Assembly (NCBI GenBank): GCA_913061075.1
Contig: CAJXSK010000013.1
Location: 1-45,871 of the forward strand
Direction: 5' to 3'
From: an uncultured Piscirickettsiaceae bacterium
GTDB lineage: Bacteria > Pseudomonadota > Gammaproteobacteria > Methylococcales > Cycloclasticaceae
Length of the DNA: 45,871 bases
A program made the position numbers and the translations under genes. Below, in pieces: positions 2,831 through 45,871 of the stretch. A model generated the notes under the pieces. The model had not been told where the DNA came from. It was given only the letters and a program-made list of their open reading frames with translations, and did no database searches. Numbering within the stretch: position 1 is the first letter of the stretch; each line of letters starts with the position of its first letter.

Positions 2831-3430
2831 TTAAAACCTCAAACGCCCTTTTTTAAATTGTCCCTCGGCTGTGCTTTCGACCCAATCAAGCGGCTTTAAT
2901 TTATCCATTATTTCCTGCTTTATATTCATTTCTAACGCCATATATTTTCTATCCTGCGGCCTCTTCAACATGCCGCAATGGATTAAAGAGGCATTTCCAA
3001 TAATTGTTTTGTCGCTTTCAGCCGGTCTTTGAGTTACTCCTATGATAGTTATCCCACGCTTGCGGCCTCGCCTTATTAACATCCCCCAGCCCTCAGGTGC
3101 TTTTGCTGGCGTGGTGACATCGGCGGTTTCTTCTGCTATCGCTGTGCAATTGCCCCAAGCAAATGCGGCCTTACTCCATAAATCAAAATCCGCCAGCGAC
3201 TTAGGCACATAAGCAAACCTTCCCTTTTTGCGTTTTAACAATAATTCAATCAATTTCCCACGATCACGCACCGCAACAAATCCCTTTTCTTTTACATATT
3301 CCTCGTCTACGTCCCAAACAATCACCCGTGCTCGGCCTTTTAACTGTTGCTTAACCCATGCTGATTTTCCCGAACCTGACGAACCGCAAACCGCCGTAAT
3401 ATTCGCCTTTAAAGTGACATCAACCGCCAT
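2831..3430 (-). CDS. Packaging ATPase, PM2 P9-like (FtsK/HerA type)
   Basis: The 199-aa protein has a Walker A loop GSSGSGKS (residues 16-23), a hydrophobic strand ending in a Glu pair as Walker B (TAIAEE, Glu100-Glu101), and a sensor-like strand ITIIGVTQRP with Gln134. That arrangement is typical of genome-packaging ATPases of membrane-containing double-jelly-roll viruses (PM2 P9, PRD1 P9). The length fits the family. It is expected to drive DNA into the preformed capsid. It starts immediately after the stop of the 136-aa gene and lies one base upstream of the PLA2-like gene, so these are one transcription unit. Confidence 0.85.
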   Translation of the reverse strand: MAVDVTLKANITAVCGSSGSGKSAWVKQQLKGRARVIVWDVDEEYVKEKGFVAVRDRGKLIELLLKRKKGRFAYVPKSLADFDLWSKAAFAWGNCTAIAEETADVTTPAKAPEGWGMLIRRGRKRGITIIGVTQRPAESDKTIIGNASLIHCGMLKRPQDRKYMALEMNIKQEIMDKLKPLDWVESTAEGQFKKGRLRF

Positions 3431-3841
3431 TTATTCGGCCTCATCGCTTAATTCGCCTGGTACTGGTTCCGCTGTTGGTTCCGGTATGTTTCGCGGCTTT
3501 CCTAATCGTGGCGCGACCACTGCAAAGGTCATCATTACCGCCGATATTTCTACGCCGTATTTGCCTAAACCGTCTGGACAATATTTGCAAAGCAAGGCGG
3601 TATAAGCCTCTGTTAGCTGCTCGACTTCTTCCTGTTGAACTTGCCAATTCGGTGCTAATACGGAAAAACCCATGCCCAGCACACCGCCGACCAAGCCGCG
3701 CAACTCTTCATCCAGCGGCGCAACTGCTTGCGCTGTTATATCGCCCACCGCCGCCGCATCGCTGTTTATCTCTCCGATCACTTCTGCCTCTAAACCTCTT
3801 AACTCTGGCTCATTTATAGCCGCTTCGTTTTCTTCACTCAA
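3431..3841 (-). CDS. Prophage protein of unknown function, TTG start (136 aa)
   Basis: I do not recognise a named family. Acidic N-terminus, then two moderately hydrophobic stretches (LRGLVGGVLGMGFSVLA and ISAVMMTFAVVAP) around a CKYCPDG segment, and an acidic Pro/Glu tail (IPEPTAEPVPGELSDEAE). The start is TTG with a strong AGGAG 7 nt upstream, overlapping the stop of the preceding gene by three bases. Its tail resembles the PTPE repeats of the preceding gene product. It directly precedes the packaging ATPase. Membrane association is possible. Confidence 0.65.
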   Translation of the reverse strand: MSEENEAAINEPELRGLEAEVIGEINSDAAAVGDITAQAVAPLDEELRGLVGGVLGMGFSVLAPNWQVQQEEVEQLTEAYTALLCKYCPDGLGKYGVEISAVMMTFAVVAPRLGKPRNIPEPTAEPVPGELSDEAE

Positions 3842-4152
3842 AATCCCATCTCCTGATCTGTTGTTTTTCGTACTGGTTCCGGTGTTGGTTCCGGTGTTGG
3901 TTCCGGTGTTGCTTCCGGTGTTGCTTCCGGTGTTGCTTCCGGTGTTGGTTCCGGTGTTGGTTCCGGTGTTGCTCCAACAATAGGCCGCATATTTTTATTC
4001 ATGTATTCCTGAAATTTGGCGGCGCGTGGTGACGTGATACCGCATAAATCACAATAAATATAAAGCTTGCCTTTTTTATCTTCTCTAACGTGCGCTGGAT
4101 AGGGTTCATCGTGAAACTGGCATTCAATCGTACCTAAATTCTCATTCGCCAT
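3838..4152 (-). CDS. Zinc-ribbon-like protein with PTPE repeat tail (104 aa)
   Basis: I place the start at 4152 (MANENLG), which has AGAGG 7 nt upstream; an in-frame ATG farther up at 4197 lies inside the previous gene. Residues about 8-46 contain one Cys and a His, then YCDLCG, resembling a small zinc-binding finger with an incomplete cysteine set. The C-terminal third is eight repeats of Thr-Pro-Glu-Pro/Ala, encoded by a 12-bp tandem repeat, followed by VRKTTDQEMGF. Such PE/PT linkers are extended and flexible. Role unknown; PM2 also carries small Cys-rich proteins near its replication genes. Confidence 0.6.
   Translation of the reverse strand: MANENLGTIECQFHDEPYPAHVREDKKGKLYIYCDLCGITSPRAAKFQEYMNKNMRPIVGATPEPTPEPTPEATPEATPEATPEPTPEPTPEPVRKTTDQEMGF
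3875..3970. repeat. 12-bp tandem repeat, 8 units, coding TPEP/TPEA
   Basis: Eight consecutive 12-bp units of ggttccggtgtt or gcttccggtgtt (plus strand) encode Thr-Pro-Glu-Pro or Thr-Pro-Glu-Ala on the minus strand. Units are arranged 3 + 3 + 2 by the g/c variant at position 2, which points to local duplication. Copy number should be prone to slippage. Confidence 0.9.
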
Positions 4153-4490: not shown

Positions 4491-6080
4491 TTATTTACAG
4501 AACTCCAAGTGCGGCGAATTGCCGCTAAAACCTAAAACCTCTTTTTTTGTGATTGTCCACTGATAGAACCGCGTTAAATAATGAACGCCTTTAGAAACCA
4601 AACCAAAAACACGACCTTTGATTAACTCACCGTATCGGTTAACGGGTGACTGCTTTAATTCGCCCGTTTCGCTGTCGAACTCATCCCACTTTGCAATGGC
4701 TATCTTTAAACTATCGCGCCGCACAAAAACGCCGCCTTGTGCCTTTTGATAGGCCGCCCAATCTGAACAATCCGCCGCCTGCCTTGCCTCTTCTATCGTG
4801 CCGCTTTCTTCATCACGCAACCGCCGCAACTCACGCCATACTCCAACGGGTGCGCCGCCGATCTGTTGAAACTGCCGAATGCCCCACGTTGCCGCCCACG
4901 CTTCCACACGTTCAGAACTATCCGCCGCGCTTTTGCCCGTCTCGAAATCTTCACCAACTCCAAAACCATCTATATTTTTAGCAATGTATTTTGCAATGTA
5001 ACCCGTTGCGCTTCCTTTGCTTTCATCAATCGCCACCGCTTCAAATCGGTACTTTTTCGCGCCACGCTCTTCCGGTGTATCTTGCAAGGCATAATATTTA
5101 ATAACCTGCCTGACGTTTGCTGCGTGTTGCTTTTGCATGAATAACAATAAATGCCAATGCGGTGTGCCGTCATGGTGTGCTTCAGCTACTCTAAAGCCAT
5201 ACACGCCAATCTCTTCACGCGCCAACTTTGCACGAATACGAGCCCAAACTGCGCATAAGTATTTTTGCGCATCTCTCGGTGTAGCACCGCTGTATTTTGG
5301 ATTAACCGCGCCGCTTTTCGATAAGCGAGCGTGAAACCTTGACGGGCAAGTGATTGTGTAAAACTCTGAAACATGGCCAGCTTCTTTCGCTATCTCTTCA
5401 AAGCCTCTCATTCTCACCATTAACTCACTGCGTTTTATTGCTGGATTAGAAACTCCCAACTCTGCCAACTCATCAAGCGCATACTTATCGCCTTCTTGGT
5501 TTTCGGCTTCAAGCTGGTTAAGTATTCTTGCATTTCTTCGCTTCTGGCTTTGCCTACGCTCTAGCGCATGATCTGAACAATAAGCCCCCGTTTTTTTGTG
5601 GACCAAACCTAAATCAATCCCGATTTTTTCCGACTTGCGCCCGTGTAGCTTCCTTAACTGCCTGCGCCACCATATTGAACACTTAAAACGCTCTATAAGA
5701 AATGGCTTTTCTATTTTCGATAAACTTTTAGAAATAACCACGCCGCGCCGCTTCAGATATTCGAGTGATATTAAGTATTGGTAATCCAAATCATCATGCG
5801 CCATCTCTGCCAGCACACGCGACAATTCAACCGCGTATTCATCCGCCGCCGTTTTAATGTCGTGATCTGAAATCATCAAACGATCATTTCCAACCGTTGC
5901 CACTTCCGAAAGTTCTAAAAGAAAATAATTGCCTGCTTTTCGATTATTCTTGTATCTATCCATTGCTAAATAAGCAGCTTTTTTCTTATAAGAAAAAGGC
6001 AAGGAAGAAAGACACCTTTCTTGATGCGCCCAATCATCGCGCAGCGTTGCCGCCTTTAAGAAACTAAACGCGCTTTGCAT
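4491..6080 (-). CDS. Rolling-circle replication initiator, HUH endonuclease (phage GPA type)
   Basis: The 529-aa product shows all three motifs of phage replication gene A proteins: motif 1 [10 protein letters not shown] (about residue 240), the metal-binding HUH motif HWHLLLF with His308 and His310, and the two-tyrosine motif [12 protein letters not shown] with Tyr361 and Tyr365. The Tyr pair spaced by three residues is typical of phiX174 A, P2 A and PM2 P12, which nick an origin and stay bound to the 5' end. The start at 6080 has an AGGTGA Shine-Dalgarno and lies 17 bases inside the preceding gene. The C-terminal 100 residues are unassigned. It shows that the element replicates by rolling circle. 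Confidence 0.9.
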
Positions 6081-6252
6081 TGCCCGTCACCTGATACTTA
6101 ACATCGTTAAAAATAAAAACGGGTTGATCTGAACCACCACCAAACACCAAATTTTTAAAAAAGAACTCTAACGCCTCACGATCAAAGCGATCAGACAAAC
6201 CGCGCTCAACTCGCAGCAAAACCACATCAATATCTATTTTCGGATAGTTCAT
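6064..6252 (-). CDS. Small early prophage protein (62 aa)
   Basis: I start it at the ATG at 6252 ([11 protein letters not shown]), which overlaps the stop of the previous gene as ATGA; a longer frame with ten extra residues is less likely. The protein is short and soluble, with no recognised motif: an acidic N-terminal strand, an Arg/Asp-rich middle ([16 protein letters not shown]) and a basic end. It is translationally coupled to its upstream neighbour and overlaps the rep start, so it belongs to the replication/early block. Confidence 0.6.
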
Positions 6253-6533
6253 AGCTCGACCAACTCCAAAGAATTTGCCCAACTAGCCGCCCTTTTTGCG
6301 GCCTCTCTTATTTGCTGCTGGTCGGCTGGCTGTATGCCGTCCCAAGAAACACGAATAAACCCGTCATCTCCTATTAGCTTTTTATCAAGCCTTGCGCTTC
6401 TAACAAGTAATGCCCTGTCACCGTTTGACATTCTTTCCCACGCGACAAAATCCCGTGATGGCATAGACAATGTTTTTTTAATTTCTTTTAGATATTCGCG
6501 GCCTGATTTGGCCTGACCTGTATTTTTTGACAT
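6249..6533 (-). CDS. First gene of the prophage operon, unknown (94 aa)
   Basis: Highly charged and Lys/Arg-rich, with probable helices (REYLKEIKKTLSM and ADQQQIREAAKRAASW). Not recognised; a small DNA-binding or regulatory protein is possible but unproven. It is the promoter-proximal gene of the minus-strand unit. Its Shine-Dalgarno AAGGTG is part of a 10-bp sequence that recurs in inverted orientation 53 bases upstream in the leader, so its translation may be controlled by RNA structure. Confidence 0.65.
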   Translation of the reverse strand: MSKNTGQAKSGREYLKEIKKTLSMPSRDFVAWERMSNGDRALLVRSARLDKKLIGDDGFIRVSWDGIQPADQQQIREAAKRAASWANSLELVEL

Positions 6534-6674: not shown

Positions 6675-6702
6675 ATGTGGCTAAATGTATATTATGTTAA
6701 AT
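6675..6702 (+). other. dif-like XerCD recombination site (prophage/host junction)
   Basis: The central hexamer TGTATA (6686-6691) and the XerD arm TTATGTTAAAT (6692-6702) are identical to the E. coli dif site over all 17 bases. The XerC arm (6675-6685, atgtggctaaa) matches in only about 5 of 11 positions. The conserved arm faces the host gene etfD and the diverged arm faces the prophage. This is the expected product when an element supplies the XerC-side half during Xer-mediated integration. Confidence 0.8.
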
Positions 6703-6849: not shown

Positions 6850-8502
6850 TTACATATTTCCATAATTAGGGCCACCACCACCTTCAGGTGTTACCCAAGT
6901 GATATTTTGTGCAGGGTCTTTAATGTCGCAGGTTTTGCAATGTATACAATTTTGACCATTGATTTGAAACTTATCATTTCCTGACTCGTCCTTTACCACT
7001 TCATATACACCAGCTGGGCAATAACGCTGTGCAGGTTCATCGTATAGCGGTAAGTTTTGAGTAATAGGAATATTGCTGTCAGCAAGCTTTAGATGGCATG
7101 GCTGATCTTCTTCGTGATTGGTGCTCGATAAAAATACAGATGAAAGTTTGTCAAATGTTATTTTACCGTCTGGTTTTGGGTAATTAATCACGTCGCATTC
7201 AGCAGCCGGTTTTAATGTGTCGTAATCTGGTGTTGTGTTATGCCAAGTAAATGGCATTTTTCCACCAAATATATTTTGATCTAACCACGCAAATGAACCG
7301 CCTAATAACGTACCAAATTTATGTAATGCAGGGCCAAAATTACGCGTTTTGTGTAACTCATCAAATACCCAAGATGATTTGTATTTCTCATCCATCATGC
7401 TTAATTCTTTATTTGAAATGTCACCAACTTTTAGCGATTCGATAATTGTTTCGGCAGCTAACATGCCTGTTTTCATTGCTGTGTGATTGCCTTTTATTTT
7501 AGCGCCATTTAAGAAACCAGCATCACAACCCACTAATAAACCACCTGGGAAACTTAGTTTTGGTACAGATTGCATGCCGCCTTTGTTAACAGCTCTTGCG
7601 CCATAAGAGACACGTTCGCCGCCTTCTAAAAATTGGCTAATTTTTGGGTTAGTTTTCCAACGTTGCATTTCATCGAATGGACTTAGATGTGGGTTTGTAT
7701 AGTTTAATGCGACAATAAAGCCTAGCGACACCTGGTTGTTTTCCATGTGATACAAGAAGCCACCACCTTCGGTGTGGTTATCTAACGGCCAACCAGCTGT
7801 ATGCACTACCAAGCCTTCTTGGTGTTTTTTAGGGTCAATAGTCCAAATTTCTTTAATACCTAAACCGTAGTGCTGTGGGTCTGCATCTTTGTTAAGGTCA
7901 AAGCTGTTCATGAGTTGTTTGCCTAGGTGCCCACGGCAACCTTCGGCAAATATAGTTTGTTTAGCAAGTAGCTCCATACCTGGCATGTAGCCGTCTTTTT
8001 CGCTGCCGTCTTCTGCAACACCCATGTCACCCGTTAAAATACCTTTAACACTTCCATCGTCGTTATAAAGAATTTCCGCTGCGGTAAAGCCTGGGAAAAT
8101 TTCAACACCCATACCTTCTGCTTGTTCTGCTAACCAACGGCATACATTGCCCATGCTGACAATGTAATTACCTTCATTATGCATAGGTTTTGGTACTAAG
8201 AAGCCGGGCGTTTTAATGCCTTTTTCTTCGCTAGTAAGGTAATAAACATCATCGCCATCAACTTCTACATTAATGGGTGCGCCCTTCTCTTTCCAGTCAG
8301 GGAATAGTTCATTGATGGCAGTCGGTTCCAGTACCGCACCAGAAAGAATGTGCGCCCCTACTTCCGAGCCTTTTTCAATAACGCAAACCATCAATTCTTG
8401 TTCAGTTTCTTGAGCTAATTGCATCAATTTACATGCAGCCGATAACCCAGCAGGGCCAGCACCTACGATGACAACATCAAATTCCATCGATTCACGTTCC
8501 AT
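6850..8502 (-). CDS. etfD: Electron transfer flavoprotein-ubiquinone oxidoreductase
   Basis: A 550-aa protein, the usual length of the family. It starts with an FAD-binding GAGPAG loop (VVIVGAGPAGLSAA) and ends with a ferredoxin-type 4Fe-4S domain whose ligands are visible as C495 and the CIHCKTC group (C519, C522, C525). It takes electrons from reduced ETF and passes them to ubiquinone at the inner membrane (EC 1.5.5.1), linking the acyl-CoA dehydrogenase of this cluster to respiration. The ATG at 8502 has GAGGA as Shine-Dalgarno. It lies downstream of etfBA but is separated by a terminator and a hairpin repeat, so it probably has its own promoter or relies on read-through. Confidence 0.95.
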   Translation of the reverse strand: MERESMEFDVVIVGAGPAGLSAACKLMQLAQETEQELMVCVIEKGSEVGAHILSGAVLEPTAINELFPDWKEKGAPINVEVDGDDVYYLTSEEKGIKTPGFLVPKPMHNEGNYIVSMGNVCRWLAEQAEGMGVEIFPGFTAAEILYNDDGSVKGILTGDMGVAEDGSEKDGYMPGMELLAKQTIFAEGCRGHLGKQLMNSFDLNKDADPQHYGLGIKEIWTIDPKKHQEGLVVHTAGWPLDNHTEGGGFLYHMENNQVSLGFIVALNYTNPHLSPFDEMQRWKTNPKISQFLEGGERVSYGARAVNKGGMQSVPKLSFPGGLLVGCDAGFLNGAKIKGNHTAMKTGMLAAETIIESLKVGDISNKELSMMDEKYKSSWVFDELHKTRNFGPALHKFGTLLGGSFAWLDQNIFGGKMPFTWHNTTPDYDTLKPAAECDVINYPKPDGKITFDKLSSVFLSSTNHEEDQPCHLKLADSNIPITQNLPLYDEPAQRYCPAGVYEVVKDESGNDKFQINGQNCIHCKTCDIKDPAQNITWVTPEGGGGPNYGNM

Positions 8503-45773: not shown

Positions 45774-45871
45774 TGTCTGTAATCCCCCCATTCCTAACCG
45801 AAGTTAAAAGTAGAGGTTAAGCTGCATTCAGTAACTGTCTAGGCGGTATGCCTCCAATCGCCGTATGCGGG
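45774..45871 (-). mobile_element. End of an IS3-family element (partial)
   Basis: The sequence from about tgtctgtaatcccccc (45774) to the window edge carries the 3' end of a transposase on the minus strand. The TG start and C-rich run fit a terminal inverted repeat. The boundary is inferred; the rest of the element lies outside. Confidence 0.55.
45817..45871 (-). CDS. IS3-family transposase OrfB, C-terminal end (partial)
   Basis: Read on the minus strand, the last codons encode PHTAIGGIPPRQLLNAA and a stop. This is the characteristic C-terminus of IS3-type DDE integrases (RPHxALGGxPP). Only the final 17 residues are in the window. Confidence 0.75.
   Translation of the reverse strand, partial: PHTAIGGIPPRQLLNAA

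Follow-up and report, generated by a model that had tools for sequence, protein, structure and literature searches.

Positions 6675 to 6702 of the window (the whole 45,871-nucleotide stretch analysed, which is all of contig C13 in the 2.26-Mb, 20-contig genome G000) very probably represent the right junction (attR) of a corticovirus-type prophage that was integrated at dif by the host recombinases XerC and XerD. We read the site this way because of its hybrid structure, its uniqueness in the genome, the phage genes on its left, the host XerC and XerD, the attP sites of related phages and a two-junction layout in the congener G013. Against this reading, the left junction is unseen, the GC skew of the window is flat, and the etf genes adjoin the site only here. 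The central idea of an earlier note on this DNA, that a double-jelly-roll prophage meets its host at a hybrid dif site, is supported by the P2-type capsid gene, the host XerC/XerD, and the attP and intact dif sites of relatives.

The 28-bp site reads ATGTGGCTAAA-TGTATA-TTATGTTAAAT on the plus strand. Positions 6675 to 6685 form the diverged, phage-side XerC arm of this attR-like site, as judged from the sequence, from 12 canonical arms of the genus and from a consensus score. The arm is identical to the commonest genus arm, ACTTCGTATAA, at 5/11 positions and reaches 7/11 in the better of two consensus scores, so the divergence seen in the earlier note is real. By sequence comparison, TGTATA (6686 to 6691) is the centre of the genus dif, and TTATGTTAAAT (6692 to 6702) is its XerD arm. 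Centre and XerD arm together match at 17/17 positions both the dif of 13 of 17 congeners and E. coli dif, which upholds the likeness to E. coli claimed before. An identical XerD arm is found in phages of this design, so the arm could belong to either the host or the phage. The 17-mer is present in a single copy in its own genome, also when one mismatch is allowed. With at most one mismatch it was found in 34 of the 41 genomes searched, while the reversed 17-mer, used as a control, matched none of them. When the window or its phage part was put through 300 Markov shuffles, no shuffle attained 17/17, and the best reached 15. As the earlier proposal had implied, a canonical dif was not found elsewhere: the whole assembly contains no site with three or fewer mismatches from the E. 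coli dif 28-mer.

Among the 17 congeners searched, the exact 17-mer was present in 13 and had no match in four (G003, G009, G010 and G015). The XerC arm joined to it is ACTTCGTATAA in nine congeners, a near variant ending in CG[TC]ATAA in three, and ATGGTATTGAA in G013. The window site could in principle be the host's own dif with a decayed XerC arm, the phage being merely adjacent, and just one such site does occur in the assembly. However, a canonical XerC arm with CG[TC]ATAA is kept in 12/13 congener sites, the exception in G013 being itself a prophage junction, and phage attP sites of the same design as the window site exist; we consider a decayed host dif very unlikely.

In the finished genome of the congener G014, dif is located at 1,195,134; all 11 of the 20-kb samples up to position 1,190,000 have a positive GC skew, and all 9 from 1,200,001 on have a negative one. 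Since the skew changes sign at dif, the 17-mer site is the terminus dif of the genus. In the window, the host genes start 147 bp to the right of the site with that for an ETF-ubiquinone oxidoreductase (6850 to 8502, minus strand, identified by family search), followed by the etf subunit genes. The distance between dif and etf is 4, 20, 42, 51, 68 or 69 kb in all six congeners with both on one contig (13 have dif), with etf on the XerC side in G007, G016, G014 and G008 and on the XerD side in G005 and G004. The etf genes are a terminus-linked block in the genus. Among the congeners compared, etf directly adjoins a dif-type site in the window only, and therefore a local rearrangement or deletion is needed there. 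The expectation that relatives would carry one intact dif before etf was thus borne out for the intact dif and not for its position. The host part of the window has a flat GC skew of 0.0007 without terminus signal, contrary to the earlier prediction, and contains no KOPS-like GGGNAGGG octamers. Because the window's own skew is flat, the terminus placement made in the earlier note rests on the relatives, where the skew switch at the G014 dif and the linkage of etf to dif speak for it.

The recognisable phage genes left of the site (Rep, packaging ATPase, capsid and small ORFs) all read leftwards, on the minus strand. Nearest to the site is a small phage ORF of 94 amino acids (6249 to 6533), which lies between Rep and the site, has no family above cut-off and weakly matches a frame of L129, a circular IMG/VR genome. 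A gpA-type (Phage_GPA) rolling-circle replication initiator, identified by family search, occupies 4491 to 6080 on the XerC-arm side and reads away from the site. It is followed by a packaging ATPase of the PM2 P9 kind (2831 to 3430; a head-and-packaging PHROG, 34% identical to the PM2 ATPase frame and 50% to L129) and by a P2-type double-jelly-roll (DJR) capsid protein (1439 to 2251), which scored 93.3 bits with P2_N and 118.6 bits with P2_C (cut-off 25 each) and shares 42% identity with NO16-like phages, 31% with PM2 and 53% with L129. Downstream of the capsid gene, the ORF list gives four small phage ORFs (6 to 1427), of which the ORF at 449 to 736 matches phages. The element therefore has the PM2-type DJR capsid protein and, near its gene, the PM2-type packaging ATPase that mark the Corticoviridae and Vinavirales. 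Within its own genome, the P2_C model matches nothing but the window; across the order, 2 of 311 genomes have a match, the window's genome included. The window Rep is 45% identical over 80% of the protein to P2-like tailed phages versus 35% to the PM2 Rep; this closeness to the gpA of P2-like tailed phages suggests a swapped replication module. A run of 12-bp units like GGTTCCGGTGTT occurs at 3874 to 3978 within the phage ORF region.

Contig C13 begins inside the phage at base 1, with 6.7 kb of the phage present and about 4 kb missing as estimated from 10-kb relatives. In agreement with the earlier note, searches of this incomplete 6.7-kb phage part revealed no integrase. The missing part could encode an integrase of the phage's own which uses dif as attachment site, so that XerCD would not be the integration enzyme, and tailless Vibrio prophages at dif are described by Steensen et al. 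as regularly having integrase genes (PMC11630473). On the other hand, PF00589 was matched at E≤1 in 0/14 related phage records (tyrosine-type PF00589 model only, some records maybe being fragments), and the site agrees in its centre and in one arm with the Xer site proper, so that an integrase of the phage's own appears improbable. The genome has six PF00589 matches. The host XerD and XerC exceed the curated cut-offs of TIGR02225 and TIGR02224, respectively; the other four proteins are on C1 (two), C6 and C10, and the one on C6 is related to one of the two on C1 (60% over 127 amino acids).

Under integration by host XerC/XerD, the left junction should carry a canonical XerC arm, which the earlier note expected to be joined to a phage arm. 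Such a junction was not found in the assembly, where C13 starts inside the phage, and a search of the own genome with the E. coli dif pattern gave none. A loose XerC/XerD pattern had 53 matches in the own genome versus 61 for the reversed control, which is noise, and the XerC half of the genus dif had one match on C14 directly before an ORF, with two control matches, and was rejected on inspection. The remaining 19 contigs were also scanned, six over their full length and the rest at both ends, 354,136 bases in total. A set of 667 stop-to-stop frames, taken from 13 loci of related phages, gave six matches there at E≤0.01, about the number expected by chance, whereas the window, as the positive control, gave many strong matches. 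The best contig-end match (3e-5, C15) was in the wrong frame inside an ORF of a flagellar-looking operon (by eye), and a second, weaker one (C14) was beside a peptidase-like ORF; both were rejected. Blastn gave no contig-end overlap with the phage part of the window. The last genes of C9 adjoin dif in three congeners (G016, G007 and G002), and the C9 end was considered as the missing flank and rejected, as it has no dif and breaks off in a repeat that also occurs at the start of C3 and at the end of C17. Separately, the 40-mer at 45792 to 45831 of the window is the reverse complement of the C9 and C14 starts and is a probable insertion-sequence end. Several contig ends of G000 (e.g. L080, L081, L083-L085, L101, L103 and L113) carry Nextera-like adaptor sequence.

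The assembly is thus imperfect, with adaptor-like sequence or shared repeats at several contig ends, and the stretch shared at the junction is only 17 bp, as would also be seen if the assembly had fused a free phage contig with the chromosome over a dif half-site common to both. Yet C13 continues through both sides of the junction, the rest of the phage was not found at other contig ends, and assembly overlaps are usually longer than 17 bp; such a chimera has very little probability in our view.

If the site is attR, the phage attP would have a dif-like centre between a diverged XerC arm and an intact XerD arm, and the host XerC/XerD would recombine it with dif, by which the phage would enter dif. 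By geometry, the left junction would then be a rebuilt intact dif made of the host XerC arm, TGTATA and the phage XerD arm, and the host would retain a working dif. As to the order of strand exchange, our preferred guess is that XerD would act first with a phage XafT-like helper. The same geometry is observed in G013, in which an element is bounded by two dif-type sites 5.9 kb apart: the left junction, TATGCGTATAA-TGTATA-TTATGTAAAAT, keeps an intact dif, and the right junction, ATGGTATTGAA-TGTATA-TTATGTTAAAT, has a diverged phage-side XerC arm. G011 has an element similar to that of G013. Unlike the window phage, these elements have filamentous-phage-like ORFs (Zot-like and pIII-like, by eye), which suggests that, inside one genus, the same 28 bp serve filamentous as well as tailless phages.

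Related loci were obtained from an alignment scan of viral contigs (12 loci) and from genome contigs (4 loci), an earlier viral-contig scan with a single protein having given no matches. Left out of the comparison were L065 (PG21), whose best site of 17/28 made no convincing attP; L127, where one intact dif-like site was seen and a second junction was not; the short pieces L128, L117 and L118; and the PM2 duplicate L137. L129, L133, L134, PM2, L136 and L138-L140 each have one clear attP, in which a dif-like centre lies between a diverged XerC arm and a XerD arm. The attP is TTGCGGAACAA-TGTATA-TTATGTAAAAT in L129, TTAACAGCCAA-TGTATA-TTATGTTAAAT in L133 and TTAACATGCAA-TGTATA-TTATGTAAAAT in L134, while the PM2 group (PM2, L136 and L138-L140) has the centre TTTATA and the XerD arm TTATGTTAAAT. 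PM2 is a circular record, and L129, L133, L134 and L138-L140 are taken as circular because of their end repeats. The dif-like attP that characterises an IMEX (integrative mobile element exploiting Xer) is therefore present in circular relatives in the design of the hybrid site 6675-6702, from which we infer the attP of the window phage. The observed 17-mer match was reached by 0 or 1 of 300 shuffles in each of the eight attP records, and in 8/8 Rep is on the XerC-arm side and reads away, as in the window. The PM2-like prophage L135, which by eye is flanked on either side by genes of host appearance, has two junctions 10.4 kb apart: the left one is ACCTCCTATAA-ATTAGA-TTATGTTAAAT, with a XerC arm of 9/11 and an adjoining DUF3653 gene, and the right one is GATACTTGATA-GGTCGA-TTATGTTAAAT, with a diverged XerC arm. 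L135 is a weaker parallel, because its centres differ (at 3/6 bases, the two bases next to the XerD arm being equal) and 14/300 shuffles attain its best 17-mer match.

A mirror design, with a near-canonical XerC arm and a diverged XerD arm, was found in NO16, L131, L132 and the Photobacterium prophages L125/L130 and L126. In the Photobacterium prophages both junctions can be seen; one pair, 10.2 kb apart, is AGTGCGCATAA-CATAGA-GTGTGGTAAGT and AGTGCGCATAA-CATAGA-TTATGTTAAAT. As each attP is the best-scoring place in its record, the division into two designs is post hoc. The 17-mer shuffle test was not or only weakly significant for NO16 (104/300), L131 (66), L132 (287), PG21 (296) and L135 (14); for NO16, L131 and L132 a weak score is expected, because their XerD arm would be diverged and the test covers the XerD-arm design. 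In all 14 of the 16 comparison rows in which Rep was found, it is on the side of the diverged arm and reads away, with L125 and L130 having the same sites and counting as one element, and with five PM2-group rows being non-independent (Rep 90-100% identical). An HTH-type regulator ORF with its 3' end in the attP or junction, and a C-terminus with CILC, was seen in L129 (2953-3351) and L069 (6882-7211); such an attP-ending ORF is common to the corticovirus L129 and the G013 element, that of L129 being below the HTH cut-off.

DUF3653 (PF12375) was matched at E≤1.8e-5 in 12 of 14 corticovirus records, 11 of them over the cut-off. The match in PM2 (orf a) is borderline: the protein alone falls slightly short of the cut-off, and together with its neighbours it passes. 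No DUF3653 match was found in L133, L134 or G000, whose phage is incomplete. In 14 control genomes, the model had a match at E≤1 in five and over the cut-off in one. The DUF3653 gene is beside the better-kept arm and reads away in 9/9 rows of the comparison placeable against a single site, and in L125/L130 and L126 it is found some 485 bp inwards of the right junction, which is intact. In NO16 (L064, MH730557), gene 7 (3558-3989) matches DUF3653 with 58 bits, its start being some 250 bp away from the dif-like attP. We take XafT, the XerD-activating factor of a Vibrio cholerae IMEX, to be a DUF3653 protein. The existence of a XerD-activating factor from an IMEX is stated in PMC9765430. Gene 7 of NO16 is annotated as S-adenosylhomocysteine hydrolase and serves as the third family marker in PMC9966536; judged by the match, it is probably misnamed.

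Tentatively, and with somewhat less than even confidence, we suggest that corticoviruses as a group may be Xer-exploiting and that the DUF3653 (XafT-like) gene next to attP may activate XerD without FtsK. The two mirror attP designs would be an intact XerD arm with a diverged XerC arm (the window, PM2 and L129) and an intact XerC arm with a diverged XerD arm (NO16 and the Photobacterium prophages); DUF3653 would flank the intact arm and Rep the diverged arm, and integration would always rebuild an intact dif beside the activator gene. If this rule is true, the NO16-like "S-adenosylhomocysteine hydrolase" marker would be a recombination activator. The fresh part of the analysis is the DUF3653 match in the related phage records, which on sequence grounds flanks the intact arm where mappable. 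In the literature searched, mostly outside subscription papers, mirror attP designs and a DUF3653 gene were nowhere found linked to each other in corticoviruses, and none of the papers naming XafT was, judged by titles, about corticoviruses. DUF3653 is named there in one paper, by its title a study of phage resistance in Vibrio alginolyticus. In G005 (L009) and G017 (L005), DUF3653-like ORFs of 133 and 113 amino acids are found on the XerC side of an intact dif, at distances of 75 and 69 bp, with the HMM match of such congener ORFs tested in G017 only; they are possibly scars of earlier Xer-exploiting elements.

Filamentous prophages at dif fall into CTX, VGJ and TLC types in PMC4246890, which also describes the CTX attP as two inverted dif-like sites folding into a single-stranded DNA attP and the TLC attP as having a dif-like XerC arm and centre with a degenerate XerD arm. 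The window phage differs from the TLC type, as its diverged arm is the phage-side XerC arm, opposite to TLC. The CTX-type comparison made in the earlier note received no support: the centre is that of dif, and no second dif-like site above 19/28 was found in the phage part, which is incomplete, or within 300 bp of the junction. The next-best scores in the phage part are 18-19/28, and the 19 is the reverse of the site itself. For PM2-like prophages, the CTX precedent was raised in 2007 (PMC1950889).

The closest capsid among annotated phage records (42%) is that of Vibrio phage NO16, which like the window phage is tailless and has a dif-like site. Its attP is the mirror image of the window, with a near-canonical XerC arm, TGTATA and a diverged XerD arm. 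Its GenBank record lists Corticoviridae, whereas PMC9966536 proposes 'Asemoviridae' together with XerCD integration, and already mentions that PM2 has a dif-like site. Pseudoalteromonas phage PM2 and L136 have the attP design of the window (diverged XerC arm, intact XerD arm) with Rep on the XerC side, although the PM2 capsid and Rep are only 31% and 35% identical to those of the window phage and the PM2 centre is TTTATA instead of TGTATA. Rhodobacter phage Jorvik, like the window phage, belongs to the Vinavirales; it has no predicted integrase, and its attP and attB are dif-like. Its XerCD integration is supported by sequencing of lysogens, which mapped the integration site. Unlike the window phage, it is integrated in the RuBisCO operon, and the attB location "seems variable" and is not given as the terminus dif (PMC10589892). 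For the FLiP-like phage CjT23 and its Flavobacterium prophages, XerCD integration was deduced by the authors (PMC9719478). It has also been seen for some tailless prophages at dif in Vibrio, where integrase genes are regularly present (PMC11630473). Thus, XerCD integration of tailless phages has been described before, and the window phage adds a further case of tailless phages apparently entering the chromosome through the dimer-resolution site.
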